NCBI GenBank assembly: GCA_017446045.1
Contig: JAFSRP010000003.1
Location: 35,111-99,110, forward strand
Origin: Lachnospiraceae bacterium
GTDB taxonomy: Bacteria > Bacillota > Clostridia > Lachnospirales > Lachnospiraceae
Direction: 5' to 3'
DNA: 64,000 nucleotides
The notes below the pieces were generated by a model, which worked only from the letters and a program-made list of their open reading frames with translations, was not told the origin of the DNA and ran no database searches. Below are positions 31,669 through 47,982 of this stretch, one piece after another. How positions within the stretch are numbered: position 1 is the stretch's first letter; the number at the start of each line of letters is the position of its first letter. Position numbers and translations under genes: made by a program.

Positions 31669-31714
31669 ATTCTTTTTTCCTCCGTTTTTTCCTTTTTATC
31701 TTTATTACGGCATA

Positions 31715-31748
31715 GGGAGCGCAGGGCCTTTCGGCCCGCTGCGCTCCC
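31715..31748 (-). other. Strong hairpin between glnN and glmS
   Basis: Arms GGGAGCGCA/TGCGCTCCC and GGGCC/GGCCC (with a 2-base bulge and a TTTC loop; GAAA on the minus strand) make a very stable stem. No T-run follows on either strand, so it is more likely a processing or mRNA-stability element than a terminator. It could separate high glnN transcript from the rest of the run. Confidence 0.6.
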
Positions 31749-31756
31749 GCCTGTTA

Positions 31757-33865: not shown

Positions 33866-33907
33866 AAGCCGCCTCCTTTTTAAAAAATGATCTTTTATAA
33901 AAGAACA

Positions 33908-33969
33908 AAAGGCGCTTCAGAAAGGGGGAAATAAACGGATAAAAAGTCCTCCCTGAAGCGCCTTTGCTC
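33908..33969 (-). promoter_or_regulatory. glnN leader: terminator hairpin with overlapping alternative hairpin
   Basis: On the minus strand, 13-bp arms (33965-33953 and 33920-33908; GGCGCTTCAG core) form a hairpin with a 32-base loop followed by TTTTGTTCTTTT. It lies about 45 bases before the glnN start and is oriented only toward glnN. Just upstream, GAGC-AAAGGC-GCTT (33969-33956) can form an alternative short hairpin that uses the same left arm. Its hexaloop begins with A and has G at position 4, as in RNA targets of ANTAR antiterminators. The layout suggests attenuation; ANTAR control is inference only. Confidence 0.55.
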
Positions 33970-34039
33970 AATAACGAATGTTTACCATACGAAAGCTCCC
34001 GCGGTCAAGCGCGCCGGCATTCCGTTTTCCTTTGCTCTG

Positions 34040-34095
34040 CCATACATTTTTCGTATGGATAAAAGATTGACGGACAAAAAGCCCCGAAATATAAT
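34040..34095 (+). promoter_or_regulatory. asnB promoter with CCATAC-N7-GTATGG operator
   Basis: TTGACG (34067-34072) and TATAAT (34090-34095) are exactly 17 bases apart. The 19-base dyad CCATAC-ATTTTTC-GTATGG (34040-34058) ends 8 bases before the -35 box. It contains a T-N11-A core (ATAC-N7-GTAT), the usual LysR-type box, and a LysR gene follows asnB. A nearly identical dyad lies at 43913-43931. Confidence 0.75.
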
Positions 34096-34125
34096 CTCAC
34101 CATATTTCAGAAAGGAGCAGGATCC

Positions 34126-35712
34126 ATGTGTTCGATACTTGTTTATTGCAGCCCAGAAGCGGACGAAGTCCTTTTCCGGAAAATGCTGGAACGGACCGCG
34201 TCCAGAGGACCGGACCAGTCCCGGATACTTAAAACGAAAGACGGTACACTGGGGTTCAACCGTCTGTCCATCATGGGCCTCTCCCCGGAAGGTATGCAGC
34301 CGTTTCTCCTGCATGGCAATGCCTGTGTCTGCAACGGAGAACTGTACGGCTTCCGTCCTTTGAAAGAGTACCTGCAGAACCTCGGCTATACCTTTGCCGG
34401 CGGAAGCGACTGCGAACTGCTGCTTCCGCTGTATGAGCGCCTGGGGACTGCGATGTTTCCTTTCCTGGATGCGGAATTTGCCCTGGTCATCTATGACCGG
34501 GAGCAGCACGGATTCATCGCGGCCAGGGACCCGATCGGGATCCGTCCGCTGTATTACGGATATGACAAAGACCATGCCATTATTTTCGCGTCGGAACCGA
34601 AGAACCTTGTCGGCGTCTGCGATGAGATCCGGCCCTTCCCGCCCGGACATTATTATAAGGACGGAAACTTCATCTGCTACAAAGACTGCGCGAAAGACGT
34701 TAAAACGTATCACGGAAGCTCCGCGGATGAGGTCTGCGGGCACATCCATGACCTGCTGATCCGCGGCGTCTGTTCCAGGCTAGACGCGGACGCGCCTGTT
34801 GGCTTCCTGCTCTCGGGCGGCCTGGATTCTTCCCTGGTCTGCGGGATCGCGGCAAAGTATTCGGACCGTCCGCTGGAAACATTTTCCATCGGTATGGACC
34901 TGGACGCGATCGACTTGAAATACGCGCGTGAAGTCGCCGATTATATCCACAGCAACCATCATGAGGTCATCATGACAAAGCAGGAAGTGCTGGAAGCTCT
35001 GGAGGATGTGATCGCCCTGCTCGGGACCTGGGACATCACGACGATCCGGGCGTCCATCGGCATGTACCTCGTCTGCAAATGGATCCATGAGCATACGGAT
35101 ATCAAGGTCATCCTTACAGGTGAGATCTCCGATGAGCTCTTCGGCTACAAATACACCGACTTCGCTCCTTCCCCGGAAGCCTTCCAGAAGGAAGCGCAGA
35201 AGCGGATCCGGGAACTGCATATGTACGACGTGCTGCGGGCCGACCGATGCATCTCCGTCAACTCGCTGGAAGCGCGGGTCCCCTTCGGCGATCTTGCCTT
35301 CGTCGACTACGTCATGGGCATCGACCCGAAGCTGAAAACAAATACCTACGGCATCGGAAAATTCCTGCTCCGGCATGCTTTCGAAGAAGACCGTCTGATC
35401 CCGTACAGCATTCTGATGCGGGAGAAAGCTGCCTTTTCCGATGCCGTTGGTCATTCCATGCGCGATGACCTGATCGGATATGCGGAAGAACGGTATACCG
35501 ATGCGGAATATGAACAGAAGCGAATGAAATACGATCACGGAAGGCCTTTCACGAAAGAATCTCTCCTGTACAGGGAGATCTTTGAAAAGTATTATCCCGG
35601 CCAGGCGGAGATGATCGCCGACTTCTGGATGCCCAACAAAGAATGGGAAGGCTGCGACGTAAAGGATCCTTCCGCGCGTGTTCTTTCCAACTACGGGGCA
35701 AGCGGACAATGA
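34126..35712 (+). CDS. asnB: Asparagine synthetase B (glutamine-hydrolysing)
   Basis: 528 residues. The N-terminal nucleophile Cys is in MCSILVYCS, followed by RGPDQSRIL and FNRLSIMGLSPEGMQPF of the class II glutaminase. The C-terminal synthetase has the pyrophosphate loop FLLSGGLDSSLVCGIAAKYS and TTIRASIGMYLVCKWI, close to the E. coli AsnB type throughout. It converts aspartate to asparagine with glutamine and ATP. It is divergent from the glutamine run and adds another amidotransferase to the locus. A well-formed promoter with a palindromic operator precedes it and a hairpin terminator follows. Confidence 0.95.
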   Translation: MCSILVYCSPEADEVLFRKMLERTASRGPDQSRILKTKDGTLGFNRLSIMGLSPEGMQPFLLHGNACVCNGELYGFRPLKEYLQNLGYTFAGGSDCELLLPLYERLGTAMFPFLDAEFALVIYDREQHGFIAARDPIGIRPLYYGYDKDHAIIFASEPKNLVGVCDEIRPFPPGHYYKDGNFICYKDCAKDVKTYHGSSADEVCGHIHDLLIRGVCSRLDADAPVGFLLSGGLDSSLVCGIAAKYSDRPLETFSIGMDLDAIDLKYAREVADYIHSNHHEVIMTKQEVLEALEDVIALLGTWDITTIRASIGMYLVCKWIHEHTDIKVILTGEISDELFGYKYTDFAPSPEAFQKEAQKRIRELHMYDVLRADRCISVNSLEARVPFGDLAFVDYVMGIDPKLKTNTYGIGKFLLRHAFEEDRLIPYSILMREKAAFSDAVGHSMRDDLIGYAEERYTDAEYEQKRMKYDHGRPFTKESLLYREIFEKYYPGQAEMIADFWMPNKEWEGCDVKDPSARVLSNYGASGQ

Positions 35713-35757
35713 TCCTGATCCTATAGGGCATAAGAACGATGATCCTCATTCTCCCGC

Positions 35758-35786
35758 TTGACGGGAAGAAGCGGATATGTCATACT
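35758..35786 (+). promoter_or_regulatory. Candidate promoter of the LysR gene
   Basis: TTGACG (35758-35763) and CATACT (35781-35786) are 17 bases apart, upstream of the hairpin at 35802. Transcripts from here would have to read through that hairpin to reach the LysR gene. Confidence 0.4.
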
Positions 35787-35801
35787 TACCCTGTAAGCAA
35801 A

Positions 35802-35837
35802 GGGGCTGACGCAGATGCGCAGCCTCTTTTTCTTTTT
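35802..35837 (+). terminator. Terminator after asnB, inside the LysR gene leader
   Basis: GGGGCTG plus CGC pair with GCG plus CAGCCTC (one bulged A, loop AGAT), followed by TTTTTCTTTTT. It lies 21 bases before the LysR start, so it may end asnB transcripts or attenuate the LysR gene. Confidence 0.75.
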
Positions 35838-35858
35838 ATTATCCCAGAGGAATCAGGT

Positions 35859-36812
35859 ATGGATTTCAAGTCTTTATACTACTTTACCGTCGTGGCGCAG
35901 GAACTGAACATCACCCGCGCCGCAAAGATCCTCAATATCAGCCAGCCGCCGCTCAGCAGCCAGATCCATAGCCTGGAAGAGGAATTCGGCACCCGGCTCT
36001 TCATCCGGAGCAGGAATGGCCTGACCCTCACCGCTACCGGGTCCATTCTCTATAAACGGGCCAAGCAGATCCTGGAGCTGGGCCGCCATACGCATGAGGA
36101 GATCCAGAATTACGAGATCGACTTAAGCGGCGACCTCAAGATCGGCACCGTGGAAGGCCGGGCTCCGTTCCTGCTTGCCAGGCTGATCGCCGGATTCCGT
36201 GATGAGTTCCCCCTCGTCACCTATACCGTCCGCAGCGGCGGCAGTGACGAGATCCTGGACCAGCTGCACCACCACCTGATCGACATCGCGGTCATTGCCG
36301 CGCCGTATGACCAGGAGTCGCTGGACGGACTGCCCCTCGGCAGGCAGCCCTGGGTCGCGATCATCCCCGGGGAGCACCCGCTCGCTTCCGCCCAGGGGAA
36401 TGGCGTCTCCCTGTCCGACCTTGCGGACGAGCCCCTGATCATCCCGGAACGCTCATCCCGGGTGCGTTCCATTGAAGAATGGTTCGCGGGCAGCGGCCTC
36501 ACACCGCATTTCCTGTGCAAGACCTCCAACTATATCAATGCGATCTCCCTTGTGGAGCAGAATATCGGGATCTGCATCTTTCCGCAGTCCACCTATACGC
36601 CCAATCCGCACGTCGTCACAAAGCTGATCAGGGACCCCGCCAAGATCGCCGAATACTACCTGGTCACGCAAAAAGACGCCCCCGTATCTGAGCTTGCGGA
36701 GGCGTTCAGGGACTATGCGGCTGACTTCCTTCTGGAAGACCGTTTCGACTCCCCCCGGTTCAGGACAAAGGAGGAGGAATTCGATATCCCCGGAGATGCG
36801 GACCTGCTGTAA
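35859..36812 (+). CDS. LysR family transcriptional regulator
   Basis: 317 residues from the ATG at 35859 (AGAGGA upstream); in-frame codons further upstream run through the terminator hairpin and are rejected. The N-terminal winged HTH is clear (MDFKSLYYFTVVAQELNITR, AAKILNISQPPLSSQI, LEEEFGTRLFIRS), followed by a two-lobed effector-binding domain (about 90-295). It is downstream of asnB in the same direction. Operators of LysR type (T-N11-A dyads) at asnB and at the methyltransferase/larC operon make those two promoters its best candidate targets. The effector is unknown; asparagine, glutamine or a metal-related signal are possibilities. Confidence 0.92.
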   Translation: MDFKSLYYFTVVAQELNITRAAKILNISQPPLSSQIHSLEEEFGTRLFIRSRNGLTLTATGSILYKRAKQILELGRHTHEEIQNYEIDLSGDLKIGTVEGRAPFLLARLIAGFRDEFPLVTYTVRSGGSDEILDQLHHHLIDIAVIAAPYDQESLDGLPLGRQPWVAIIPGEHPLASAQGNGVSLSDLADEPLIIPERSSRVRSIEEWFAGSGLTPHFLCKTSNYINAISLVEQNIGICIFPQSTYTPNPHVVTKLIRDPAKIAEYYLVTQKDAPVSELAEAFRDYAADFLLEDRFDSPRFRTKEEEFDIPGDADLL

Positions 36813-36850
36813 AATAAGAATATTGTCGCTTTTATATTTTTGAAGTAGAA

Positions 36851-36889
36851 ATCCCCTTCTGCTGCCGTCGCCGGCCCGCAGAAGGGGAT
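36851..36889. terminator. Bidirectional terminator between the LysR gene and the methyltransferase operon
   Basis: Twelve-base arms ATCCCCTTCTGC (36851-36862) and GCAGAAGGGGAT (36878-36889) pair perfectly. T-rich sequence follows on both strands, so both convergent units can end here. Confidence 0.8.
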
Positions 36890-36895
36890 CTTACA

Positions 36896-37693
36896 TCATT
36901 TTTCTCCCGGAGCGCAAGCCCCTTCATTCGTCGCCTTATCCGCACAGAGCCGGAAAAACAGACGGTCTTTATAGGAGTATTTCAGCTCTTCCGTATAAGC
37001 TGCCCGGAAGGCCACATTCTCCCACTCAATGTTCCGATATCCGAGTTTTGCCAGCGTTTCAACATCCCATTTCGGACGTTCCTCATAGGTCAGCTTCAGA
37101 TCCCGCTTAAAGCCCCTGGCCTCTTCATAACGGCCCCTGTCAAAGGAAATGGATGGCTCCTTTCCGAATCTTTCCTTATAATCCCGGATGTATTCTTCGT
37201 TATTGTGATCAAACGCTGTCAGAAAATCATCCTTTCCATGCCCGGAATCGAAAACGACGATCCGTCCTCCCGGTTTCAGGATATCCAGCCACTTTTGGTA
37301 AACAGCTTCGGGATCCTGCATGATCCATACCACATTTCGGCTTACGATCATATCAAAGCTGTTATCAGGAAAATCCAGCTGTTCGGAATCCATCAGCAGA
37401 TAACACGGGGCAGTATTGTACATTGCGGAGTTTGATCTTGCTTCTTCCAGCATCCTGGGAGAAATGTCGATTCCCGTGACATCGTGGCCTGCCAGAGACA
37501 GCAGGGTCGCAAACACCCCGGGACCGGTCCCGACATCCAGGATCTGCATTTTTTCATTCCTCGGTGCCTTTTCCAGGATCAGATCCGTCCAGATCTCTCT
37601 CCCCGGTGAAACAAAGTCCAGCGGCACTACTTTTTTGCTGTATCCTTCCGCGGATATTTCCCATCCGTGTTTAATACGTTCCTTCAGATCCAT
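36896..37693 (-). CDS. Class I SAM-dependent methyltransferase (first of three)
   Basis: 265 residues with a strong AAAAGGGGGCAGGG ribosome binding site. The SAM-binding motif I is ILDVGTGPGVFATLLSLAG and the acidic strand is VTGIDISPRML. The post-motif segment SRNVVWIMQDPEAVYQKWLD and LKPGGRIVVFDSG are shared in pattern with the other two methyltransferases of this region. It lies 57 bases after the ABC ATPase and is the last gene of the importer operon. Association of such methyltransferases with FecCD-type importers suggests a role with a metal chelate or cofactor, but the substrate cannot be read from sequence. It is the most divergent of the three. Confidence 0.88.
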   Translation of the reverse strand: MDLKERIKHGWEISAEGYSKKVVPLDFVSPGREIWTDLILEKAPRNEKMQILDVGTGPGVFATLLSLAGHDVTGIDISPRMLEEARSNSAMYNTAPCYLLMDSEQLDFPDNSFDMIVSRNVVWIMQDPEAVYQKWLDILKPGGRIVVFDSGHGKDDFLTAFDHNNEEYIRDYKERFGKEPSISFDRGRYEEARGFKRDLKLTYEERPKWDVETLAKLGYRNIEWENVAFRAAYTEELKYSYKDRLFFRLCADKATNEGACAPGEK

Positions 37694-37750
37694 TTTCCCT
37701 GCCCCCTTTTGTCTGTGACGGTTCTTTGCAGACCGTGCGTCCGTTATCCG

Positions 37751-38512
37751 TTATATCGGCTCGAGAGGAAGTACCATCTGATATCCCTCTTCCAGCGAAA
37801 GTACCCGCGAATTCACGCCGTATACCTCCCGGATCAGGTCCGGCTTCAGGATCCGGTCCGCCCTGTCGTACGCGTAGATCCCGGCGTTATGAAGCACAAG
37901 CAGGTTGCTGCCGTATCGGGAAGCCAGCATCAGATCGTGGACGACAAAGATCGTGACCACATTCTGCTCCCTGGTATATCGTTCCGCAAGGTCCATGACG
38001 ATCAGCTGATGTCTGAGATCCAGTGCCGAAGTCGGTTCATCCAGCAGCAGGACCTTGGGCTTTCCGATCAGGGACTGTGCCATGGAAACAAGCTGCTTCT
38101 GGCCTCCCGAAAGTGTGTTGAAGGGCTGCCCCGCAATATGGCTTATTCCAAGATCGAGCAGGGTCTGCCAGACCATGTCCGTCTGCTCATCGGTGACATG
38201 CCATTTGAGGTTGCTGACCAGCCCCAGCAGGACCATTTCAAAAACAGTCAGCCTGGTCTGCAGCGCGCCGAGCTGCGGGACGTAAGCGATATCTTTTTTC
38301 CGGAAGGTGCTCCTGCCGTCCTCTTCCAGTTCTGTGGTCCCCGAGGATCCGATCAGGTGCGCGATCGCTTTGAGATACGTCGTTTTTCCCACTCCGTTGC
38401 TTCCGATGACCGCCGTCATCACACCCGCTTCAAAATCAGCAGAGATCCGGTCCAGTACAGTTTTGTCACCAAAACGGACCGTAACATCTTTCGTCCTCAG
38501 TATCCTGTTCAT
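37751..38512 (-). CDS. FecE-type ABC transporter ATP-binding protein (metal chelate import)
   Basis: 253 residues. Motifs: Walker A GSNGVGKTTYLKAI, Q-loop YVPQLGAL, signature LSGGQKQLVSMAQSLIG, Walker B VLLLDEPTSALDLRHQ and switch His in FVVHDLMLASRYG. The LSGGQ context and the C-terminal part (EVYGVNSRVLSLEEGY) fit ATPases of siderophore, haem, cobalamin or metal-chelate importers. The start overlaps the permease stop by TAATG, so they are coupled. It should drive import through the permease encoded just upstream. Confidence 0.93.
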   Translation of the reverse strand: MNRILRTKDVTVRFGDKTVLDRISADFEAGVMTAVIGSNGVGKTTYLKAIAHLIGSSGTTELEEDGRSTFRKKDIAYVPQLGALQTRLTVFEMVLLGLVSNLKWHVTDEQTDMVWQTLLDLGISHIAGQPFNTLSGGQKQLVSMAQSLIGKPKVLLLDEPTSALDLRHQLIVMDLAERYTREQNVVTIFVVHDLMLASRYGSNLLVLHNAGIYAYDRADRILKPDLIREVYGVNSRVLSLEEGYQMVLPLEPI

Positions 38513-39558
38513 TACCGCACCTCTCTCATCAGCAAAACAAACAGGAACGGAACGCCGACGATCGAAGTAACGATGCCGACCGGAAGCATGGATCCCTGCG
38601 TCATCAGCTTGGAGACCGTGGAAGCTGCCAGCATGACCAGGATGCCGAACAGGGTCGAGACCGGCATCAGGTAACGCTGATCCTCCCCTACGAGCATTCT
38701 GGCGCAGTGCGGTGCCACCAGTCCGACAAAGCCGACCGTCCCGATAAAACCGACGCCGGTGGCGATCAGCAATGCACTCGCCGTGAATACCTGCATTTTC
38801 AGACTTTCAACAGGAATGCCCAGGCTCAGGGCCCTTTCTTCTCCTGCAGTAAAGGCTGTCAGCTTCCAGCTCAGTCTGGCGAAATAGATCACACCGGCAA
38901 ACGTTACCGCGATCCCGACGATCGCGCTCGTCCAGCTTGCCCTGGCAAGATTTCCAAAGGACCAGTTGGATATGATCTGCGCGATCTCCGCACTGGCTCT
39001 GTACTGAAGATACTGCTGCAGGGCGGAGAAAAAAAAGTTCATGATAATGCCGACCAGGACCAGTGTATGCGCTGACATGCCCTTCATTTTTCCGAGAAAA
39101 AAGATCATCAATGTGACGAAGAGCGCGAAGGCAAAAGCGATTGCCGCTGTACCGATCCATTGAAAACCGAAGATGGAAATACCGGTCACGATCGCTATGG
39201 CTGCGCCAAAGCTGGCACCGGAAGAGATCCCCAGTGTATAGGGGCTTGCCAGTGGATTGTTGGTGATCGTCTGGACCTGGAGTCCGGACAGCGCAAGGCA
39301 GCCGCCTACCCCGACACAGGTCAGTGTCATGGGCAGACGGACTCTCCACACGATCAGCTCATAGGTCCCCTTCACCCCCGGTCCCTGCAGAAGGATCCGG
39401 ACGCATTCCCTGAATGTCAGGTTTGAGGAGCCGATACTCATATCTACGATCCCCAGTGCCAGGACCGCAGCGATCGTGAAGGCAAGAACGATCCGCCGTT
39501 TCCAGTTGATCGCACTGTAGATCGATCTGCCTTCACTTTTTTCTGCAAATTGGTTCAA
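38512..39558 (-). CDS. FecCD-type ABC transporter permease (metal chelate import)
   Basis: 348 residues, about ten membrane helices, typical of the FecCD/BtuC family: RLPMTLTCVGVGGCLALSGLQVQTITNNPLASPYTLG is the family region (first part RLPMTLTCVGVGG, then NNPLASPYTLGISSGASFG). Later GFIGTVGFVGLVAPHCARMLVG is also diagnostic. Translation appears to begin at TTG (39558), directly after the binding-protein stop codon, using GGGAG contained in the last codons of that gene. There is one permease gene, so the transporter is probably a homodimer. Confidence 0.94.
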   Translation of the reverse strand: MNQFAEKSEGRSIYSAINWKRRIVLAFTIAAVLALGIVDMSIGSSNLTFRECVRILLQGPGVKGTYELIVWRVRLPMTLTCVGVGGCLALSGLQVQTITNNPLASPYTLGISSGASFGAAIAIVTGISIFGFQWIGTAAIAFAFALFVTLMIFFLGKMKGMSAHTLVLVGIIMNFFFSALQQYLQYRASAEIAQIISNWSFGNLARASWTSAIVGIAVTFAGVIYFARLSWKLTAFTAGEERALSLGIPVESLKMQVFTASALLIATGVGFIGTVGFVGLVAPHCARMLVGEDQRYLMPVSTLFGILVMLAASTVSKLMTQGSMLPVGIVTSIVGVPFLFVLLMREVR

Positions 39559-40815
39559 TTATTTCTCCCAGCTCATCATAAAGGTGCCGTCTGCCGTCAT
39601 TTCGGGCAGATATTTCTTCAGCAGGGCGTCATATTCAGCCTGCGGGTCTATATCCTCAAAATAATCCGGATAAACGATCTTGGCAAAATATTCCGTAAAG
39701 GTATAATCCAGCGCATTGCGAAGGGAACCGTGGTCTACCGCATAGATCCTTCCGTTTTTGATTCCCTTCAGATCCTGCCACCAGTCTCTGTCCACAAAGT
39801 TCTGCAGTCTTTCACGCGCCAGTGTTTCATCCACCATAAGACCCATGCGCATCTGGTCATTGTCATTATCATCAGACCAGATGGAGCCGCCGATCACGAT
39901 GATATCCGGATCTGTCTCCAGGATGTATTCCATATCCAGCGGACCATAGCCTTCCGCAAGTTTCCCCTTCGCCGGATTGATGGCACCGATATTGTCAATG
40001 ATCGCGCCCCAGAGCATTCCGTCATATGAATTACTGATCGTGCCGGCACCCTGGTTTCCAAGCTCCATGTACACTTTGACCTGCTTCTCCTCCTCGGGGA
40101 TCTCCGCGACACGCTCCGCCACGATCTCATATCCCTTTTCACAGGCTTCGCAAAGCTCTTTTGCGACGTCTTCCCTGCCCAGGAGGCGTCCCAGAATGGT
40201 AGTACTCAGGATATCGTTTTCTTTCAGCATCTTATGATAATCCAGAACGATGACCTTGATGCCTGATTCCTCCCAGACAGGGATACTTGTTTCATTATCG
40301 GTATACTGGGAACGGTTGATCAGCAGTACATCCGGCTCCAGCTCAAGGATGCGCTCCCTGTCGAGGACATTGTCATGATAGCCGCCGATGCTGGGAATGT
40401 CCGCGATCTCGGGATAAGCGTCGAGCAGTGCATGGTACTCGCCGTAACGGGTATCCTCCCAGCCGTCCTGCGTCATGCCGACGATCTGTCCGATGCTGTC
40501 CTTGCCGCCTACAAGCAGGAAGTTGAAAATGTAGTTGGCGACCACAAAAGTCTCGGGCTCCTTTTCAAAAGCACTTTCTCTGCCCTGGATGTCCGTGATC
40601 GTAAACAAAGGCTCCGCTGCCTGTGTTTCGGCTTCTGTTTCGGGGGCAGCTGTTTCTGCCGCTTCCGTAGCTGCTTCAGTGACTGCTTCCGCGCTGGTCT
40701 GTGCCGCTGTTGTCTCGGGAGCCGCTGTTGTGGAAGCGGTGCTTCCTCCCCCGCAGCCGGCCAGTGCAGCCATGGTCAGTGAAATAACTGTCAGTGTCGC
40801 GATCCATTTTTTCAT
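39559..40815 (-). CDS. Substrate-binding lipoprotein of the FecBCD-type importer
   Basis: 418 residues. A signal peptide with lipobox LAALAGCGGG is followed by a Thr/Ala/Glu linker (about 25-70), then a two-lobed binding protein of the FecB/BtuF class (TITDIQGRESAFEKEPETFVV; DRERILELEPDVLLINRSQ; GRIYAVDHGSLRNALDYT). The binding cleft contains several acidic and Trp residues (SIWSDDNDNDQMRM) that could contact a cationic chelate. It is first in its operon and preceded by a structured leader. The ligand is unknown; the larC neighbour makes nickel or a nickel chelate an attractive guess. Confidence 0.9.
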   Translation of the reverse strand: MKKWIATLTVISLTMAALAGCGGGSTASTTAAPETTAAQTSAEAVTEAATEAAETAAPETEAETQAAEPLFTITDIQGRESAFEKEPETFVVANYIFNFLLVGGKDSIGQIVGMTQDGWEDTRYGEYHALLDAYPEIADIPSIGGYHDNVLDRERILELEPDVLLINRSQYTDNETSIPVWEESGIKVIVLDYHKMLKENDILSTTILGRLLGREDVAKELCEACEKGYEIVAERVAEIPEEEKQVKVYMELGNQGAGTISNSYDGMLWGAIIDNIGAINPAKGKLAEGYGPLDMEYILETDPDIIVIGGSIWSDDNDNDQMRMGLMVDETLARERLQNFVDRDWWQDLKGIKNGRIYAVDHGSLRNALDYTFTEYFAKIVYPDYFEDIDPQAEYDALLKKYLPEMTADGTFMMSWEK

Positions 40816-40856
40816 TGATTCTTTTCCTTTCTGTCATATTAAACAGATAACAAAAA

Positions 40857-40974
40857 GGCATACGGTCTTCTTCTGAAGATCGTGTGCCTTCAATGCACAA
40901 TACATATAAGGTATGCCCGGACCGGCACGGTCTCTGCCGGAGCATGAGCCGCCGCCTTAGTATCACTCCATACC
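40857..40974 (-). promoter_or_regulatory. Structured leader of the importer operon with attenuator, copy 1
   Basis: On the minus strand a hairpin (arms 40888-40875 and 40870-40857) is followed by TTTTT, about 40 bases before the binding-protein gene. The overlapping short hairpin TGTGC-ATTGAAG-GCACA (40899-40883) would exclude it, the layout of an attenuator. Upstream, CATACC/GGTATG (40969-40974 and 40910-40915) enclose CCGGCA/TGCCGG (40922-40940), a possible aptamer-like fold. The 43-base block 40857-40899 is repeated at 43788-43830 with about 38 identities. Confidence 0.6.
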
Positions 40975-41083
40975 CTGTTGATCATCCATGACTGCTTCTG
41001 CAGCTCCTGTAGGCTTCCTGCCGGGGATGACTCTGCCGGGATCATTTCATTGAAACCATTCAACTCCTGCCGGCAACAACTAA

Positions 41084-41112
41084 TCTATATCATTCTCCAT
41101 ATTCCCGTACAA
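41084..41112 (-). promoter_or_regulatory. Candidate promoter of the importer operon
   Basis: On the minus strand TTGTAC (41112-41107) and TATAGA (41089-41084) are 17 bases apart, giving a leader of roughly 260 bases. The 381-base gap 40816-41196 otherwise holds the leader structures and the terminator of the upstream operon, and no gene. Confidence 0.45.
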
Positions 41113-41149
41113 GCCCCCTTAGGGGATAAATATCAGTGAATAAATATAC

Positions 41150-41190
41150 AAAAAACACCCGGGATCATTCATACAGCATCTGTGACCCGG
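41150..41190 (-). terminator. Terminator of the methyltransferase-larC operon
   Basis: On the minus strand CCGGGTCA (41190-41183) pairs with TGATCCCGG (41167-41159, one bulge) and is followed by GTGTTTTTT, just after the stop codon of the last methyltransferase. Confidence 0.7.
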
Positions 41191-41196
41191 AGGGAT

Positions 41197-41973
41197 TCAG
41201 TTTTTCACAGCTTCCACCAGAAAAAGGGGCGTGGAGGCATAGTTCAGCTTTTCTTCAGCCGACCAGACCGTCTGCCAGATCCTCTCATCTGCAGCGACCG
41301 AACACCCAAGTGCAGCGAGGATCTCTTCGTCCCATGCCGGACGCAGGATGGATGACAAGGGGATGCGCCGCGCAATGTCTTCCATCACCTCGAAATTCTT
41401 TCCGATATTGCCGTCGCTGCATCCCATCTCGGCGGTATTCCGGCGGTCTATTTCATAAGCTTTCAGGGCCTCGTCATCATACAGGTACCGGTACCAGTTC
41501 GCATCAAAATTCAGCAGCAGTCCGCCCGCTTTGAGGACACGGCACCACTCCCGGTAAGCAAGGTCCGGATGCGGCAGATTCCAGGTCAGGTTCCTGGATA
41601 CGACCACATCAAAGCTGCTGTCTTCAAACCGGAGCTCCTCCGCGTTCATCTCCCGGAAATCGATCGTTTCCGCGAGCGGTCCCGCATTGCGGCGTGCTTC
41701 TTCCAGCATGGCTGGCGTCAGATCCACCGCAGTCACCCGGTATCCTGCCTCTGCCAGAATAATAGCAAAGAAGCCCGGACCGGTCCCGACTTCCAGGACC
41801 CGTATCTCCTGCCTGGATCTCTCCGGAAAATGGTCCCGGATCCGGCGGTCGATCGCCCCGAACCAGATACCGCGCTGTCCGGATCCGAGCTCATCCCTGT
41901 TGACAGCGGAATACCCGGGCGCCCGCTGCGTCCAGTATGATCTGTTTTCAGTGATGATCGAACAGTCAGACAT
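41197..41973 (-). CDS. Class I SAM-dependent methyltransferase (second of three)
   Basis: 258 residues. N-terminal motif YWTQRAPGYSAVNRDEL, SAM motif I VLEVGTGPGFFAIILAEAG, acidic VTAVDLTPAMLEEARR, then SRNLTWNLPHPDLAYREWCR and LKAGGLLLNFDANW. The same YWTQRAP, RNLTW-LP and NFDA pattern appears in the third methyltransferase, so they are paralogues. The start overlaps the end of larC by 8 bases, so translation is coupled. It is the last gene of its operon. The substrate is unknown. Confidence 0.88.
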   Translation of the reverse strand: MSDCSIITENRSYWTQRAPGYSAVNRDELGSGQRGIWFGAIDRRIRDHFPERSRQEIRVLEVGTGPGFFAIILAEAGYRVTAVDLTPAMLEEARRNAGPLAETIDFREMNAEELRFEDSSFDVVVSRNLTWNLPHPDLAYREWCRVLKAGGLLLNFDANWYRYLYDDEALKAYEIDRRNTAEMGCSDGNIGKNFEVMEDIARRIPLSSILRPAWDEEILAALGCSVAADERIWQTVWSAEEKLNYASTPLFLVEAVKN

Positions 41974-42850
41974 ATAACTCGCCCAACATGGCTCTTACAC
42001 AGTTTGCAGCTTCAAAATCCTTGTTTCCCATCCCATAGCCGATCTTTTCAATACACATGACCGGCTTCCGGCCGAACGTGTCCGCGAAATGACGGAGAAG
42101 TGCAGCGCCTGTCGGTGTACACAGCTCCGATTGGATGCCGTTGTCATATACGGGGATCCCTTCAAGCAGAAATGCCGTGGCGGGTGCGGGAACCGGCATC
42201 AGGCCGTGCGCACAGCGTACAAACCCACAGCCTGTATTTACAGGCGAAGCGATCACCTTATCGGGATGGATCTTATGCATCAGCATACAGACCGCCGTCA
42301 CATCTGCGACCGCGTCCATACTGCCCACTTCATGAAAATGGATCTCTTCTACAGGAACACCGTGGGCGCGGCTTTCCGCATCCGCGATCAGTTTGTAGAC
42401 CTCCAGCACTTCATTGCGGATCTCCTCCGGAAGCTGCATGTGATCTTTTAAGATATGGCGGATGCCATCCATGTTGCTATGGCTGTGTCCATGTTTGTGA
42501 TCGTGACCATCGCCGTGATCGTGACTGTGCTCATGATCGTGGCTGTGCTCATGATCGTGACTGTGTTCGTGACCGTGGCTGTGCTCATGATCGTGATCAT
42601 GCTCATGATCATGACTGTGCTCGTGATCGTGTGCGCCCTCCTGGACACCATTGACCAGGACTGTCATGTGCGTGCCGCAAATACCGCACCTGACCGCCGG
42701 ATCCGCGCGGAAGCTGACGTTCGGGATCCCCAGCCCATTCAGCTCTTCAACGAATGACTCCTGCTCCTCTTTCGGCAGCAGTTCCAGCAGCGCCGCGCTG
42801 AGCATATCGCCGGCAGCCCCCATTCCACAGTCTAAGTACAATACTTTCAT
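41966..42850 (-). CDS. larC: LarC1-type nickel-insertion protein with His-rich region, LarC2 half absent
   Basis: 294 residues. The N-terminus MKVLYLDCGMGAAGDMLSA and the segments VEEIHFHEVGSMDAVADVTAV and TNTGCGFVRCAHGLMPVPAPAT-like (here VNTGCGFVRCAHGLMPVPAP) identify LarC, which inserts nickel into the pincer nucleotide of lactate racemase-type enzymes. Residues about 75-125 are an unusually long His/Asp/Glu repeat (HDHEHSHDHEHS units), a likely nickel store. The protein stops after CVRAMLGELYV, where the LarC2 domain would begin; in lactobacilli the two halves are joined by frameshifting, but no second half exists here because a methyltransferase gene starts within the last 8 bases. No larA, larB or larE is in the window. 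Confidence 0.85.
   Translation of the reverse strand: MKVLYLDCGMGAAGDMLSAALLELLPKEEQESFVEELNGLGIPNVSFRADPAVRCGICGTHMTVLVNGVQEGAHDHEHSHDHEHDHDHEHSHGHEHSHDHEHSHDHEHSHDHGDGHDHKHGHSHSNMDGIRHILKDHMQLPEEIRNEVLEVYKLIADAESRAHGVPVEEIHFHEVGSMDAVADVTAVCMLMHKIHPDKVIASPVNTGCGFVRCAHGLMPVPAPATAFLLEGIPVYDNGIQSELCTPTGAALLRHFADTFGRKPVMCIEKIGYGMGNKDFEAANCVRAMLGELYV
42478..42642 (-). repeat. Imprecise tandem repeats encoding the LarC His-rich segment
   Basis: GTGATCGTGACTGTGCTCAT-like units recur with periods of about 12-24 bases and encode HDHEHS repeats. Such tracts can change in copy number, so the metal-binding segment may vary between strains. Confidence 0.75.
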
Positions 42851-42939
42851 GCTGATTCCTTTCCGTACCTCGGTTTTTTATGACAGAACGATCCAGTTCC
42901 GGATCGCTGTGTTCCTTTTTTTCAGGGCCCCGGAACCAT

Positions 42940-43671
42940 TTATTTCCTCGCCCAGAACAGAAACAGCGGCGCATCCGACAGGTCTCTCTCCTGAAGGATC
43001 CTTTTCCCTGCTTCTTCATCCGCGCCGGCATCCGTAAACCCGATCGCTTTGGCGGTGCTGACATCCCACAAGGGCCGCCGAAGCATGCCTGCAGGCATTG
43101 CGAGGGTGATCTCCGCATTTTCCCGGACCAGGTCAGCCGTCATGCCGAAATGCCCATATACGCCTTCCGGATCAATATACGAATTCTTCTGGTTCTCATT
43201 GCGGACATTCCGGGCATAATCCGCGTCGAAATTGATGAGAACGCCGCCCTTGCGAAGGATCCTGTACCAGTCACGGTATGCCTTTTCCGGATCCGGCAGT
43301 GTCCAGGTCAGATTGCGCGTAACGATGGCATCAAAAGATCCGTCGTCAAACGTGGTCGCCTGCGCATCCATCAGCAGGAAATCTGCCTCTATGTCCGACT
43401 GCTCTGCCATTTTCCGCGCTTCCCCGATCATTGCCGGGGTCAGGTCGATTCCCGTCAGCCGGTGCCCGAGCGCAGTCAGAATAATGGAAAAATATCCGGT
43501 CCCGGTGCCCGCGTCGAGAATGTCCAGCGTCCGGCCTTCCGGGAGATAGCGCGTGATCTCCTCGATCCAGCGGTCTGTAATGCCGTCTTCGAGTTCATTC
43601 CTGCGGACCGCGCTGAAATAGGGCGCTCTTTGGGTCCAGTAATCTTTAACTCTCTCCTGAAGTGATCTCAT
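42940..43671 (-). CDS. Class I SAM-dependent methyltransferase (third of three)
   Basis: 243 residues. N-terminal YWTQRAPYFSAVRRNELED, SAM motif I ILDAGTGTGYFSIILTALG, acidic LTGIDLTPAMIGEARK, then TRNLTWTLPDPEKAYRDWYR and LRKGGVLINFDADYARN. It is a paralogue of the methyltransferase at 41197-41973. It is first in the operon methyltransferase-larC-methyltransferase, 89 bases before larC, and is preceded by the second attenuator-like leader and a LysR-type operator. Substrate unknown; the context suggests a metal cofactor or a metallophore. Confidence 0.88.
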   Translation of the reverse strand: MRSLQERVKDYWTQRAPYFSAVRRNELEDGITDRWIEEITRYLPEGRTLDILDAGTGTGYFSIILTALGHRLTGIDLTPAMIGEARKMAEQSDIEADFLLMDAQATTFDDGSFDAIVTRNLTWTLPDPEKAYRDWYRILRKGGVLINFDADYARNVRNENQKNSYIDPEGVYGHFGMTADLVRENAEITLAMPAGMLRRPLWDVSTAKAIGFTDAGADEEAGKRILQERDLSDAPLFLFWARK

Positions 43672-43780
43672 ATGCTTTACAGCCGCTCCCGCTTTGCATT
43701 TTTTCTATGATCAGCCACCCGGTACATATCCTCTGAAAGGCAAGCCGGTAATTCTGCATTCATTAATCCTGAACTTAAGC

Positions 43781-43830
43781 AAAAAAAAGCATACGGTCTT
43801 CTTCTGAAAGCCGTGTGCCTTCATTGCACA
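43781..43830 (-). promoter_or_regulatory. Attenuator-like leader of the methyltransferase-larC operon, copy 2
   Basis: On the minus strand a hairpin (arms 43818-43806 and 43801-43789, loop AGAA) is followed by T8. TGTGC-AATGAAG-GCACA (43830-43814) forms a mutually exclusive short hairpin. The block matches 40857-40899 in about 38 of 43 positions, including both pairing alternatives. TATGTAT lies just upstream in both copies. It is about 110 bases before the methyltransferase start. Confidence 0.6.
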
Positions 43831-43912
43831 TTTCATATATACATAACATTCCTGACTGGCTTCCACAAGCCTCCCGGGGGGATACGGACCTGCTGTAAGG
43901 CCTGCCGCTTTT

Positions 43913-43931
43913 CCATACGCAAAATGTATGG
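43913..43931. promoter_or_regulatory. CCATAC-N7-GTATGG operator between the small ORF and the larC operon
   Basis: Read on the minus strand this 19-base dyad differs from the asnB operator (34040-34058) at one position, including its non-palindromic centre. It sits between the divergent larC operon and the 24-codon ORF, so it could control either or both. Confidence 0.7.
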
Positions 43932-44037
43932 ACACCCATCTTTTATCTATATTTTACAAAAATCGGGACCGGCAGTATGATGAAGCCAGAAAAAGAAAAG
44001 CACTCCGGTTTTTAAAAATAGAAAGAAGGTAAGCAAA

Positions 44038-44112
44038 ATGAAGACCGTGATCATGTACCTTGAAGAGATCCTCGAAGAATACTACGCCGAATTCCGTAAC
44101 GGCAGGGTATAA
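44038..44112 (+). CDS. 24-residue small ORF, function unknown
   Basis: The ORF encodes a peptide starting MKTVIMYLEEILEEYYAEF and ending RNGRV. It has a strong AAGAAGG ribosome binding site 8 bases before the ATG. It lies 106 bases downstream of the CCATAC-N7-GTATGG operator; a TATATT box at 43948-43953 could be its -10 element. A good terminator follows at 44193-44225, so a transcript of about 270 bases is expected. The peptide is amphipathic and rich in Glu and Tyr, with no signal peptide. It could be a regulatory or leader peptide, a small partner protein or a substrate of a neighbouring enzyme. I do not recognise it. Confidence 0.55.
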   Translation: MKTVIMYLEEILEEYYAEFRNGRV

Positions 44113-44192
44113 GACGGAACTGCCGGAATGAGATAAGCGTCAGCGATCTGACAAATGATCTGACAAGAAGATATCAAAAAATCTAAAAAAAG

Positions 44193-44225
44193 CGGAAGCG
44201 CCTGTGGACCGGGTGCTTCCGTTTT
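44193..44225 (+). terminator. Terminator downstream of the 24-residue ORF
   Basis: CGGAAGCGCC pairs with GG(G)TGCTTCCG (8-base loop), followed by TTTTC. The stem is preceded by A-rich sequence. Confidence 0.75.
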
Positions 44226-44239
44226 CATTATTTTAGGCA

Positions 44240-44550
44240 GCTCAGAATTTGCCATCATAAAACCGGCCGGTTTGGTTTGCATAATCTCGACATTTTCAAT
44301 ATACGGAACTTCTTCATTTTTATACGGTTCAGGATCCGTCTATCTGGGACAGTGAAAGGGTTCGATGCCCAAAAATGCTACAAAAAAGCAGAAAAATGCT
44401 GAAAACGTAGCATAAAAATCGAAAACCGATCGAAATGCAGGATCGCCATGCTACAGAAAAGACGGAAAAAGGAAAATGCGTAGCAGAAAGTTTACATAAT
44501 TCGAATAATATGCTACGGATCACAGGCTTTTTCATCATTTGCGTAGCATT
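44240..44550. repeat. Intergenic repeat element, copy B (ATGCTAC word, alternating orientation)
   Basis: CATAAAACCGGCC, TTTGGTTT, CATAAT and TCAATATACGGA blocks (44255-44310) match the minus strand of copy A (8920-8990). Next to them the 7-base word ATGCTAC occurs six times in strictly alternating orientation: 44375, 44407, 44448, 44480, 44510 and 44543 (the fourth copy keeps only GTAGCA). These form three successive inverted pairs. AGTTTACATAA at 44489 also recurs in copy A. The rest of 44226-44740 shows no credible gene; a 113-codon frame at 44435 crosses the palindromes and lacks a clear ribosome binding site. Confidence 0.65.
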
Positions 44551-44740
44551 TTTGTGGTTTTTAGCTTCAGAGCCTCTTTGTCATCGGATTTGGATAATGA
44601 AAGGAAACCTCTTAGCAGGGCTGAACGATATGGCAGCCACAGAAAAATGGCGGCCACAGATAAAATGCCCGTATGGTAAGGGCTCTCTCATTTTTTTACA
44701 GCTACACTTTCTGTCCGCCCTGTATTTTATCCCCCCACTC

Positions 44741-44784
44741 AAAAAAAACGCCGATCACCCTTACATACCTGGATGATCAGCGGC
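44741..44784 (-). terminator. Terminator of the MgtC gene
   Basis: On the minus strand GCCGCTGATCA (44784-44774) pairs with TGATCGGCG (44757-44749) with a small bulge, followed by T8. Confidence 0.8.
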
Positions 44785-44845
44785 AATAAAACAAACACAT
44801 TTTACCCTGTTGCCCTGTAACTTGGTTTTTCGCTCGATGCTGCTT

Positions 44846-45565
44846 TTACGTATCCTGCAGCTGCAGGCCCACGATCTCCGGATGCTCCTTCGAGAACTCC
44901 AGGACCTCCTCCAGTGTCAGCGGATTATGTGCACGGGAGGTGATCGTCAGAATCACCGTCTCCGTATCCTTTCTCAGCGAGCTGCTGTCGATGATGCTCG
45001 CATGCCCTGCCAGGAGCTGCAGCACCTCATCCGTGCACGCAGGTCCGTGGAAGCGGAGCTCGAGCTTCTGCTCGGTCATAACATCATTGTCAAACGGATG
45101 CCGGTGAAGCAGGATCTGCAGCAGGAGCAGCAGGATGGTTTCCGTGATGCCGACCCAGTACATGCCGGCGCCGATCGCCATACCGACTGCCGCGGTCGCC
45201 CACATGCCGGCCGCCGTCGTCAGGCCGTGTATCGAGTTCCTGCCCTGCTTGAAAATGATACCCGCGCCGAGGAAGGAAATACCACTCACGACCTGGGCTG
45301 CGATCCGCGCCGCATCGGCGCCCCGGATGCCGGGGGTCTCCCCGATCACCAGATCCTGGAAAGCGTACTTCGAAAGGATCATGAATACGGAGGCCGTCAT
45401 GGCCACGATACAGTGCGTACGGACTCCGGCGCCCTTCAGCCTCCGCGAGCGTTCCATGCCCACCAGCATTCCAAGTACGGCTGCGAGCACGATCCGCAGC
45501 GCGAATTCCAGGTTATCATAGCGCGTCAGCGTCGTTTCCAGCAGATATGAGGCATTCCCGATCAT
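44846..45565 (-). CDS. MgtC/SapB family membrane protein
   Basis: 239 residues. The N-terminal half has four or five membrane helices with the MgtC signature: RIVLAAVLGMLVGMERSRR, AGVRTHCIVAMTAS, and SGISFLGAGIIFKQG followed by IHGLTTAAGMWATAAVGMA. The C-terminal part (about 155-239) is soluble and ACT-like. Family members are linked to magnesium or phosphate stress; many are of unknown role in commensals. It has its own extended -10 promoter and a leader of about 85 bases with two small hairpins (GGCGGG-TT-CCCGCC and AACGAT-CCAG-ATCGTT). Confidence 0.9.
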   Translation of the reverse strand: MIGNASYLLETTLTRYDNLEFALRIVLAAVLGMLVGMERSRRLKGAGVRTHCIVAMTASVFMILSKYAFQDLVIGETPGIRGADAARIAAQVVSGISFLGAGIIFKQGRNSIHGLTTAAGMWATAAVGMAIGAGMYWVGITETILLLLLQILLHRHPFDNDVMTEQKLELRFHGPACTDEVLQLLAGHASIIDSSSLRKDTETVILTITSRAHNPLTLEEVLEFSKEHPEIVGLQLQDT

Positions 45566-45655
45566 GGCTTCTGATTCCTTCCCGAACGATCTGGATCGTT
45601 AAAATTGCTCTCCGGCGGGTTCCCGCCCTGAAAGGACGGCATACCCCTTACCTGT

Positions 45656-45664
45656 ATTCTAGCA
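45656..45664 (-). promoter_or_regulatory. Extended -10 promoter of the MgtC gene
   Basis: On the minus strand TGC-TAGAAT (45664-45656) forms an extended -10 element about 90 bases before the start; no good -35 box was seen. Confidence 0.45.
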
Positions 45665-45687
45665 CAATACCATAAAATAAAAAATGC

Positions 45688-45720
45688 CGGATGCCGGGAA
45701 TAATGAAAAGCAGGCATCCG
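45688..45720 (-). terminator. Terminator of the DUF3842 gene
   Basis: On the minus strand CGGATGCC and GGCATCCG form a perfect 8-bp stem (17-base loop) followed by GCATTTTTTATTTT. Confidence 0.8.
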
Positions 45721-45798
45721 ACTGTCAGGGCTCTGTCTGTCAGGGATCCGTCCTTCCGCAGTTTCCCCCGGAAACAGGGGCAATGCCTCCGGTCCCGG

Positions 45799-46230
45799 TC
45801 AGTCGTCCTCCTCCAGAGTCGCGGCAAGATGCCGGACCGCGTCCGTGATCAGCTTGCCTACACTGAAATCGGATACGCCCGCGATGTAGTTATCGCAGTT
45901 GTTGAACGGCACCATGATGCGCTTGGCATCCGCCTGCGCGATGGAACGGGCGATTTCCGGCGTGATTTCTCCCAGCATGGCATCCGCGATGACCATGCCG
46001 ACCGGGCCGATGATCAGGTCAGCCTTTCTGCAGACGACACGGACCGCGTTCTCTCCGGTCGCCGCCTCGTCCGCGCCAGCCTTCATCATGGCGCTTGTGG
46101 CCGCAAAGTTGGTCCCCACCGCTATGACGTGCGCATCCAGGGCCTCCTTCCGGATCAGCATGATGATCTGCTTGCCCAGGCCGCCGCCCTGCGCGTCCAC
46201 TACCATTACTGTTTTCTGTCTGTCTGCCAT
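45799..46230 (-). CDS. DUF3842 family protein
   Basis: 143 residues from the ATG at 46230, which has GGGGGA seven bases upstream; the longer frame upstream has no site. The Rossmann-like N-terminus TVMVVDAQGGGLGKQIIMLI, then VIAVGTNFAATSAMMKAGAD and GPVGMVIADAMLGEITPE identify the DUF3842 family of Clostridia, whose role is unknown. The repeated NCDNYIAGVSDFSVGKLI end is typical. It is a single-gene unit divergent from the TIM-barrel gene. Confidence 0.8.
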   Translation of the reverse strand: MADRQKTVMVVDAQGGGLGKQIIMLIRKEALDAHVIAVGTNFAATSAMMKAGADEAATGENAVRVVCRKADLIIGPVGMVIADAMLGEITPEIARSIAQADAKRIMVPFNNCDNYIAGVSDFSVGKLITDAVRHLAATLEEDD

Positions 46231-46328
46231 CTGCTTTTCCCCCATAGGAATGAATAGGAATGATCCTTTTGCTCCGGGCGCATGCTCCGGACTCAGATAG
46301 TTCACATACTTTATACCGGGCCCACACG

Positions 46329-46374
46329 GACCGAATTCATTACGCCGGACGCAAACGGATCGCATTCATTATAA
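46329..46374 (-). repeat. Imperfect direct repeat upstream of the DUF3842 gene
   Basis: CGGACCGAATTCATTA (46329-46344) and CGGATCGCATTCATTA (46359-46374) match at 14 of 16 bases, 30 bases apart. Three helical turns between copies would put two regulator-binding sites on one DNA face. Confidence 0.35.
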
Positions 46375-46409
46375 AAGAACGCTTCGTGTTTCGCAACCAC
46401 GCAGACCTG

Positions 46410-46426
46410 GTATTATGATATAATAC
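46410..46426 (+). promoter_or_regulatory. Palindrome over the -10 box of the TIM-barrel gene
   Basis: GTATTAT-GAT-ATAATAC is a perfect 7-bp inverted repeat that contains TATAAT (46419-46424), about 45 bases before the start. The -35 box is weak. This looks like a repressor-operator overlap. Confidence 0.5.
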
Positions 46427-46469
46427 AGGTATATTCCCCGCAGTATCTAGACGAGAAAGGACAGGATCT

Positions 46470-47255
46470 ATGAAATACGGATTTGCTACACCGTTTGCCA
46501 GCTCGCAGCAGGTACCCGAATTTGATTTTTACAAGGCTTTGAAGGACGCGGGATATGACTTCCTGGAGCTTCCCGGCACCCTGATCAACAACATTGATGA
46601 CGACGAATTCCAAAAGCTTGCCGATTACCTGGACGAGATCGGAATGAAGTCCGAAGGGCTCTGCTCGCTGTTTCCCGGAAGGATCAAATTCTTCGACATC
46701 GGAGGCGACGAGCTGGAAGAGTACATCGACTGGATCTTTGATAAGGCCCGCCTGCTCGGTGCACGCAAGATCGGCTTCGGAAGCGGCGGCTGCAGAAGGC
46801 TCCCTGCCGGCATGGACCGCGCAGAGGGCATGGAGATCTTTACCGACAAGGTCAGAAAGCACATCGTACCCTATCTCGATAAATATGACTACGAAATGGT
46901 CTTGGAGCCTTTCACCCCGGCGGAGACCGATTTCATCAACACCGCGGCGGAAGGCGCGGAAGCTGTCCGCAGGATCGGGAGCAGCCGCATCGGCCTTCTG
47001 GAGGACACACTGCATATGATCGGTGCCGGCGAGGATCCGGTGCAGGTCGTGAAGGAATACGGGGACCTGATCCGCCATATCCATATCAGTGAGCCCGAAC
47101 GCGTACTTCCCGTGGAGCAGTACAGCGAAAAATGCCTTCGCTGCGTGCAGGCATTTGCCGGATCCGGCTATGACGGTACGATCTGCTTTGAGACAGCATG
47201 TGCCGACCGCAAGGACCTTGCCGTAGCTTTGAAGACACTTAAGAAACTATGGTAA
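46470..47255 (+). CDS. Sugar phosphate isomerase/epimerase-like TIM-barrel protein
   Basis: 261 residues of the AP-endonuclease-2/xylose-isomerase-like fold. Visible features are the KYGFATPFASSQQVP start, GYDFLELPGTLINNI, the glutamate strand in EMVLEPFTPAETDFINT, LLEDTLHMIGAGEDP and the His in RHIHISEPERVLP. The Glu/Asp/His set suits a divalent-metal site of an isomerase or epimerase. Substrate unknown. GAAAGGA precedes the start. The following gene overlaps by 7 bases. Confidence 0.85.
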   Translation: MKYGFATPFASSQQVPEFDFYKALKDAGYDFLELPGTLINNIDDDEFQKLADYLDEIGMKSEGLCSLFPGRIKFFDIGGDELEEYIDWIFDKARLLGARKIGFGSGGCRRLPAGMDRAEGMEIFTDKVRKHIVPYLDKYDYEMVLEPFTPAETDFINTAAEGAEAVRRIGSSRIGLLEDTLHMIGAGEDPVQVVKEYGDLIRHIHISEPERVLPVEQYSEKCLRCVQAFAGSGYDGTICFETACADRKDLAVALKTLKKLW

Positions 47256-47971
47256 TGAAAAAGGAACTGCCGCGAAACTTTACGGCCGGGCTGTCCCGAC
47301 CTTATATTTCGGTGCGCCGTGACGGCGCCCCCTCTTACGGGGGAAGCCAGAACTGGTTCGGCGGAATGATCCGGATCTGCGGCTGCGCCGTGATCGGCGC
47401 CGCGGACCTGCTCTGGTACCTGAAGGGTGCGAAAGATCCGACACCCGAGGAATATGACTCCCACGTCCTGAAGACCCGGAAGTCTTTCTTCCTGATCCCT
47501 TTCCGGGGCCTTCCGGGCATTGTGACGCCGCCTCTCCTCGGGCTGAGTCTTCAAAAGAACGGCCTGCCCTATACCGCCCGGTGGGGTGCCGGACGGGCCG
47601 GGATCCGCAGGGCCGCCGCGGTAATGATCAGAAATGACATCCCCGTGCCGGTCTGTATCGGTCCCTGCCTGCATCAGCTCGGCGCCGCGCCCCTTTACCG
47701 GGGGCTCCGGCTCTACGAGAAGCGTGCGGGACAGGATAAGGACAAGCCCTCCTATGTCTGGGTCAAGACCATCCGGAACCATTTTGTTGTCATGACCGGC
47801 ATCCAGGGACATTGGGGCCGAGTCTCCAGCTGGGGCCGCGAGTACTATATCGACCTAAAAGAATTCGAAGAGCTGTCCCGCAGGGATGCCTTCGGTGCCT
47901 TTACGAACATCATCCGGATCATCCCACGGGGCAGCTCCCGTATCAATTATTATCTGCTTAGATCTTCCTGA
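47249..47971 (+). CDS. C39-like cysteine-peptidase-fold protein, function unknown
   Basis: 240 residues, coupled to the TIM-barrel gene by overlap. The segment GSQNWFGGMIRICGCAVIGAADLLWYL resembles the catalytic-Cys helix start of C39-like papain-fold proteins. VKTIRNHFVVMTGIQGHWGR would supply the His, and REYYIDLKEFEELSR may follow with an acidic residue. There is no signal peptide or membrane anchor, so it is probably cytoplasmic. The pairing with a sugar-isomerase-like gene gives no obvious pathway. Assignment rests on motif resemblance only. Confidence 0.5.
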   Translation: MVMKKELPRNFTAGLSRPYISVRRDGAPSYGGSQNWFGGMIRICGCAVIGAADLLWYLKGAKDPTPEEYDSHVLKTRKSFFLIPFRGLPGIVTPPLLGLSLQKNGLPYTARWGAGRAGIRRAAAVMIRNDIPVPVCIGPCLHQLGAAPLYRGLRLYEKRAGQDKDKPSYVWVKTIRNHFVVMTGIQGHWGRVSSWGREYYIDLKEFEELSRRDAFGAFTNIIRIIPRGSSRINYYLLRSS

Positions 47972-47982
47972 TCTTCTTATGA

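Follow-up and report, generated by a model that had tools for sequence, protein, structure and literature searches.

The described systems closest to the locus reported here are the nickel importers of the NikABCDE/Opp type (NCBIfam Opp2B, Opp5A-NikA), the FecBCD/BtuFCD-type importers, the nickel-pincer nucleotide nickel-insertion enzyme LarC and the opine-type metallophore clusters (staphylopine, pseudopaline). To our knowledge, no described nickel importer includes a methyltransferase, and the nickel ligands and nickel trafficking of gut anaerobes are poorly known. We analyzed a 64,000 nt stretch of DNA (“the window”) from a Lachnospiraceae bacterium (GenBank assembly GCA_017446045.1, 79% complete; contig JAFSRP010000003.1, positions 35,111 to 99,110) in which three related methyltransferases (MT_A, MT_B and MT_C) are encoded with a FecBCD-type importer and LarC1, a His-rich protein that corresponds to the N-terminal domain of LarC. 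In our judgment there is about an even chance that this locus is a nickel-chelate uptake and processing unit, with the methyltransferases modifying a small ligand of the metal and LarC1 handling or inserting nickel.

Each of the described systems resembles the locus in part. Most members of the methyltransferase family have NikABCDE/Opp-type importer genes as neighbors, whereas the window has FecBCD instead. As in FecBCD/BtuFCD-type systems, there is a lipoprotein, a FecCD permease and an ATPase, but here with a co-encoded methyltransferase. LarC1 shares the conserved N-domain of LarC and carries a His-rich insert, but it lacks the C-terminal LarC2 domain and its locus lacks larB and larE. Opine-type clusters combine an Opp-type or FecCD importer with an optional methyltransferase, although their characteristic biosynthetic enzymes were not matched in the genomes that carry the family (see below). 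The nearest precedent that we saw is the opine zincophore clusters with extra methyltransferases, some of them also with FecCD importers, as described in PMC7438024.

Two adjoining operons with a shared leader

The locus comprises two adjoining minus-strand operons, operon 1 at 41197-43671 and operon 2 at 36896-40815, in which all seven open reading frames (ORFs) were confirmed. Operon 1 encodes, in order, MT_A (42940-43671), larC1 (41966-42850) and MT_B (41197-41973), the last sharing 8 nt with the end of larC1. Operon 2 encodes a FecB-type substrate-binding lipoprotein (39559-40815; lipobox LAGC by eye), a FecCD permease (38512-39558), a FecE/BtuD-like ATPase (37751-38512) and, as the last gene, MT_C (36896-37693). 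Within both operons, genes overlap or are separated by no more than about 90 nt. Coordinates and Pfam/NCBIfam assignments thus agree with the initial annotation, which had described two operons with a FecBCD-type importer and three class I S-adenosylmethionine (SAM) methyltransferases.

The common leader motif that it reported was also recovered by repeat comparison and folding. A 57-nt minus-strand element precedes operon 1 (43783-43839) and operon 2 (40852-40908), the two copies are 88% identical, and the pattern has two matches in the window versus none in 100 shuffles. An 81-nt leader query against 25 genomes of the genus matched its own assembly twice, both times at these operons. The sole other match was weak (G412, 85% over ~32 nt), and a full counterpart was not found in the other 24 genomes. 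The predicted structure of either copy is a hairpin with a T-run after it (z -2.6 and -2.5), and these hairpins are not listed by the consensus terminator scan. As the leader is shared, and was found in its own assembly only at these two places, it is very probable that both operons react to the same signal. A riboswitch was considered and rejected. No Rfam family reached the gathering score in the window, two sub-threshold matches were to unrelated families, and 28 methyltransferase loci (20 short, including the window's own, L003, and 8 long) yielded only three tRNAs.

A methyltransferase family beside nickel-type transporters

MT_A, MT_B and MT_C all match Methyltransf_11 and have the SAM-binding Rossmann-type fold with a GxGxG motif that is expected of class I, small-molecule-type SAM methyltransferases. 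Two of them had been singled out as clear paralogues; the relatedness holds, but it extends to all three, which form one family with W14, R127-N128 (in RNxxW), W131 and RPxWD present. MT_C is the divergent member, with GWEIS and RNVVW in place of YWTQRA and RNLTW, and without Y13, R17 and T130 of the fuller YW..R / RN[LV]TW form. The nearest relatives by sequence profile and fold (AlphaFold model of MT_B, pLDDT, the predicted local distance difference test score, 95.6) are small-molecule methyltransferases. Because the most His/Cys-rich alignment columns of the family reach only about half, the methyltransferase itself is probably not a nickel protein.

Relatives were detected in 25 of 150 and 57 of 397 sampled genomes of the same bacterial family, the latter distributed over 49 of 334 genera. 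Within the window's genus, 5 of 25 genomes have relatives. A one-genome-per-species scan confirmed at least 476 relatives, from which the best 80 loci were kept. These are mostly metagenome-assembled genomes titled Lachnospiraceae, Oscillospiraceae, Ruminococcaceae or Clostridiales, and the named carriers among them include Flavonifractor plautii ATCC 29863 and Sutterella wadsworthensis DSM 14016.

Gene neighborhoods were read for 152 loci, of which six duplicates were dropped; 70 of the remaining 146 have less than 6 kb readable on one side. A Nik/Opp-type transporter (NikB/NikC/NikA-like genes) occurs within 10 kb in 117 of the 146 loci and within 1 kb in 93. By comparison, Nik-type genes were absent from all 20 random 20-kb regions of methyltransferase-bearing genomes, which likewise had no hydrolase, lar, HypB or FecCD genes and a single LysR. 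The usual transporter partner of the family is NikABCDE-like, not FecBCD, and FecCD permeases were found in 5 of the 146 loci. Six of nine tested NikB-type permeases score above the cut-off of the NCBIfam “nickel ABC transporter permease” model (Opp2B), and the fused ATPases of locus L186 exceed the NikD, NikE, CntD and CntF cut-offs. Two methyltransferases are encoded in 91 loci, and an AstE/AspA-type hydrolase domain lies within 1 kb in 45, sometimes fused (in one example MT_B-AstE-MT_A form a single 840-aa frame).

Other nickel genes recur nearby. At least one lar gene lies near nine of the 146 loci, eight of which also have a Nik-type transporter, and HypB lies near three, including two from the window's genus. 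G037 (L186) has MT_B followed by NikB, NikC, a binding protein, two fused ATPases, LarE, LarB and LarC, while L259 has LarB, LarE, LarC, MT_A, MT_B and Nik. In G399 (L188), from the window's genus, two HypB genes that both score higher than the cut-off of TIGR00073 come before MT_B (73%), MT_A and an operon of the Nik type. LarB and LarE of L186, L177 and the window's own genome all score above their NCBIfam cut-offs.

We also observed single open frames of 813-856 aa that combine MT_B, the hydrolase and MT_A (L039:7901-10423, the one checked with Pfam, and similarly L159, L162 and L166). MATE-family and MsbA-like ABC (ATP-binding cassette) exporter genes adjoin some of the Nik-methyltransferase operons (L193, L195, L033 and L183).

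Tree placement of the three methyltransferases

A tree of 238 methyltransferase sequences (context Nik in 189, none in 38, Fec in 6 and both in 5) separates the members encoded in the window. All 12 nearest neighbors of MT_B are in a Nik context, as are 10 of the 12 nearest to MT_A (the others being one with both transporters and one with none), and MT_B shares 71-75% identity with copies that three genomes of the genus carry next to Nik-type operons. MT_C instead forms a clade of three (support 0.995) with genes of G261 and G542 that are linked to FecBCD; both genomes encode FecB-FecCD-FecE with the MT_C-clade gene. G542 belongs to another family of the order, so the clade spans two taxonomic families. 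MT_C is 52% identical to the methyltransferase of L198 and 45% identical to that of L340, both of which adjoin FecBCD. An order-level search with MT_C matched 18 of 392 genomes at the chosen threshold, and besides its own genome only G261 and G542 reached 48% identity. The methyltransferase of a further FecBCD-linked locus (L182) falls outside the clade. On this tree placement, the window joins a FecBCD-type cassette with a Nik-type methyltransferase pair. No Nik-type transporter is labeled in window positions 30001-50000, where FecBCD is found instead, and the locus would be a variant of the family's usual arrangement, with FecBCD and a stand-alone LarC1.

The importer and its binding protein

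The FecCD permease (PF01032, 269 bits), the Peripla_BP_2 binding protein and the ABC ATPase (ABC_tran) stand together in one operon and make up a FecBCD-type metal-chelate importer. The binding protein is most closely related to PDB 4mo9 and to YiuA (6b2x), for which an Arg triad has been proposed to bind the siderophore (PMC5683015). This triad is not kept in the window's protein, which has a gap, His194 and Gly at the corresponding positions; His194 aligns with Arg165 and His362 with His331 of YiuA. His194, His362, Arg343 and Arg366 are identical in all four methyltransferase-linked binding proteins, and all are absent from the FecB-like protein of L180, which is not in an operon with a methyltransferase. 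The His pattern is not unique to methyltransferase loci, as 4mo9 has both His. Its conservation would fit direct metal contact, whichever the metal.

LarC1 and the lar genes of the genome

The prediction of a His-rich nickel-insertion protein is confirmed by TIGR00299, which LarC1 matches with 206.9 bits against a curated cut-off of 90. The protein has 294 aa, 35 of them His, and its PF01969 match covers profile positions 1-234 of 375. Its His-rich insert (42476-42637, minus strand) consists of HDHEHSHDHEH... repeats and is encoded by 18-nt direct repeats. Of the N-domain residues with at least 95% conservation across 47 full-length LarCs, LarC1 retains all 50. It clusters with LarCs from its own genus (support 0.959), and on these grounds the domain is probably functional and arose within the genus.

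The locus had been described as free of lactate racemase and other Lar genes. This is true of the locus itself, as neither larB nor larE is labeled in the stretch read, but not of the genome: the same assembly has larE, larB and a full-length larC on contig C45, the only other place with a PF01969 match, and larA on C30. Searching the genome (G000 C30, C21, C54, C24, C48 and C50; loci L302-L307) gave, besides this one clear LarA, five weak Lar_N matches of 26.6-36.5 bits in open frames of 427-450 aa. A gene next to the clear LarA encodes DUF4147 and MOFRL domains. As larE, larB, larC, larA and weak LarA candidates are all encoded, nickel-pincer enzymes are likely in use in this organism.

We read 17 other LarC loci, chosen among the matches listed (13 with short frames, two full-length, one of 325 aa and one cut by a contig end). 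They include larB in 13 cases and larE in six, but a family methyltransferase in none. A conserved LarC1-methyltransferase module is not supported. Other short larC genes may exist beyond the matches listed. Short larC1 genes occur elsewhere in the family, so the LarC N-domain can exist as a separate gene. Separate larC1 and larC2 genes are neighbors in L092 and L104, and in L097 larE lies between them.

A possible route for imported nickel and alternative explanations

Under the reading that we favor, FecBCD would import a nickel chelate, and the methyltransferases would methylate its organic ligand, or a product of that ligand, as a step in building, releasing or recycling it. LarC1, which is rich in His, could then receive, store or pass on the released nickel, possibly toward the nickel-pincer enzymes of the cell (LarA and its homologs), and the hairpin leader would place both operons under the same signal. 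Gene context points to nickel as the imported metal. We infer methylation of the ligand because the usual partner of the family is a nickel-type importer and other nickel genes recur nearby. The original proposal of uptake combined with methylation or processing of a metal cofactor or metallophore is thereby upheld as far as the recurring transporter link (Nik/Opp generally, FecBCD with the MT_C clade in two further genomes), the nearby lar genes and the shared leader go, whereas methylation of the pincer nucleotide has become less likely.

Several observations weigh against our interpretation. The identity of the metal comes from context only, no methyl acceptor can be named, and importers of the Opp/Nik type can carry other cargo. 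Three of the nine NikB-type permeases, one NikC-type permease and all three binding proteins tested fall below curated nickel cut-offs, and for the window's FecCD permease the B12 and siderophore models of NCBIfam match about equally, all below cut-off. A Nik-type transporter is missing from 29 of the 146 loci, 15 of which have less than 6 kb on one side and 14 of which do not. Among the loci read, LarC1 stands beside a methyltransferase in this window only. Nik-type operons with no methyltransferase in sight also occur on C24 and C34 of the same assembly. The permease on C34 shares 77% identity with one of the genus that is linked to a methyltransferase, and since this contig ends ~150 nt upstream of the operon, a methyltransferase neighbor may have been lost from view.

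The methyltransferases could alternatively make or tailor a secreted metallophore, as in opine-type clusters, with the importer retrieving the loaded form. We consider this unlikely. MATE genes and ABC exporter genes each occur within 10 kb at 14 of the 146 loci, and opine zincophore clusters sometimes include extra methyltransferases, among them actinomycete clusters with a FecCD-type importer (PMC7438024). Neither an exporter nor a scaffold-making enzyme is seen in the two operons, however, and several loci consist of methyltransferases and transporter only, in one run (e.g., L171 and L260). Among 61 methyltransferase-bearing genomes, none matched nicotianamine synthase (PF03059, which matched in one control genome but may not detect bacterial CntL) and none matched opine dehydrogenase (PF10100, for which the control genomes were silent too). 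It is quite unlikely that LarC1 is a truncated, decaying copy that was inserted by chance into an ordinary metal-uptake locus. The absent C-terminal domain, the grouping with same-genus LarCs and a pairing seen only here would suit such a history, but the frame is intact and overlaps MT_B, the highly conserved N-domain residues are all kept, and short larC1 genes exist elsewhere in the family.

Transport of cobalt, a corrinoid or another tetrapyrrole by the importer, with the methyltransferases acting on this cargo, appears very unlikely to us. The FecCD permease has BtuC as its best NCBIfam match, and MT_A, MT_B and MT_C each match the CpaM model, which is associated with corrinoids, in each case below cut-off; the neighbors that name a metal (LarBCE, HypB and Nik-type permeases) indicate nickel, and the Rfam scans described above revealed no riboswitch. 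We give least credence to modification of the nickel-pincer nucleotide, or of another Lar intermediate, into a variant cofactor. LarC1 does lie between MT_A and MT_B in one operon, and nine loci have lar genes nearby. Still, the other 137 of the 146 loci have no lar gene in the stretch read, which makes this chemistry less likely; in addition, the locus lacks larB and larE, LarC1 has no C-terminal domain, and no family methyltransferase is seen next to the lar genes on C45.

Neighboring genes

A LysR-type regulator (35739-36812, plus strand; PF03466/PF00126) adjoins MT_C and possibly regulates the locus. It has a short, weak match (37%, ~73 aa, 49 bits) to a LysR that adjoins other methyltransferase loci. 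Upstream of operon 1, beyond an MgtC gene, is a DUF3842 gene (45799-46365, minus strand; domain match) whose membership in the system is uncertain. A second DUF3842 gene (L186:5255-5656) is directly upstream of an MT_B-type gene, in one of the 146 loci. In two Nik-type loci a DUF4198 protein, of a Pfam family that we take to be associated with nickel uptake, is encoded directly downstream of the methyltransferase (L342:8582-9334, Pfam-checked, and L341:8636-9376); by BLAST it matched in only two of the other loci.

Implications

Among the open-licence papers that our searches listed, no title or abstract opening described a link between this methyltransferase family and nickel uptake. We suggest, tentatively and at somewhat less than an even chance, that the family represents a widespread, so far undescribed nickel-acquisition chemistry of gut and rumen anaerobes. 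Dedicated methyltransferases, often paired and sometimes fused via an AstE/AspA-type hydrolase, would remodel the ligand of imported nickel, and LarC1 would have been recruited here as a stand-alone insertion or delivery partner. The stand-alone LarC N-domain offers a way to probe the role of this domain without the C-terminal domain, and the methyltransferase family is a concrete handle on a possible new nickel ligand. Its context beside nickel-type transporters hints at an undescribed handling of imported nickel in a group of gut and rumen bacteria, with relatives that extend to Oscillospiraceae-named records, F. plautii and S. wadsworthensis.

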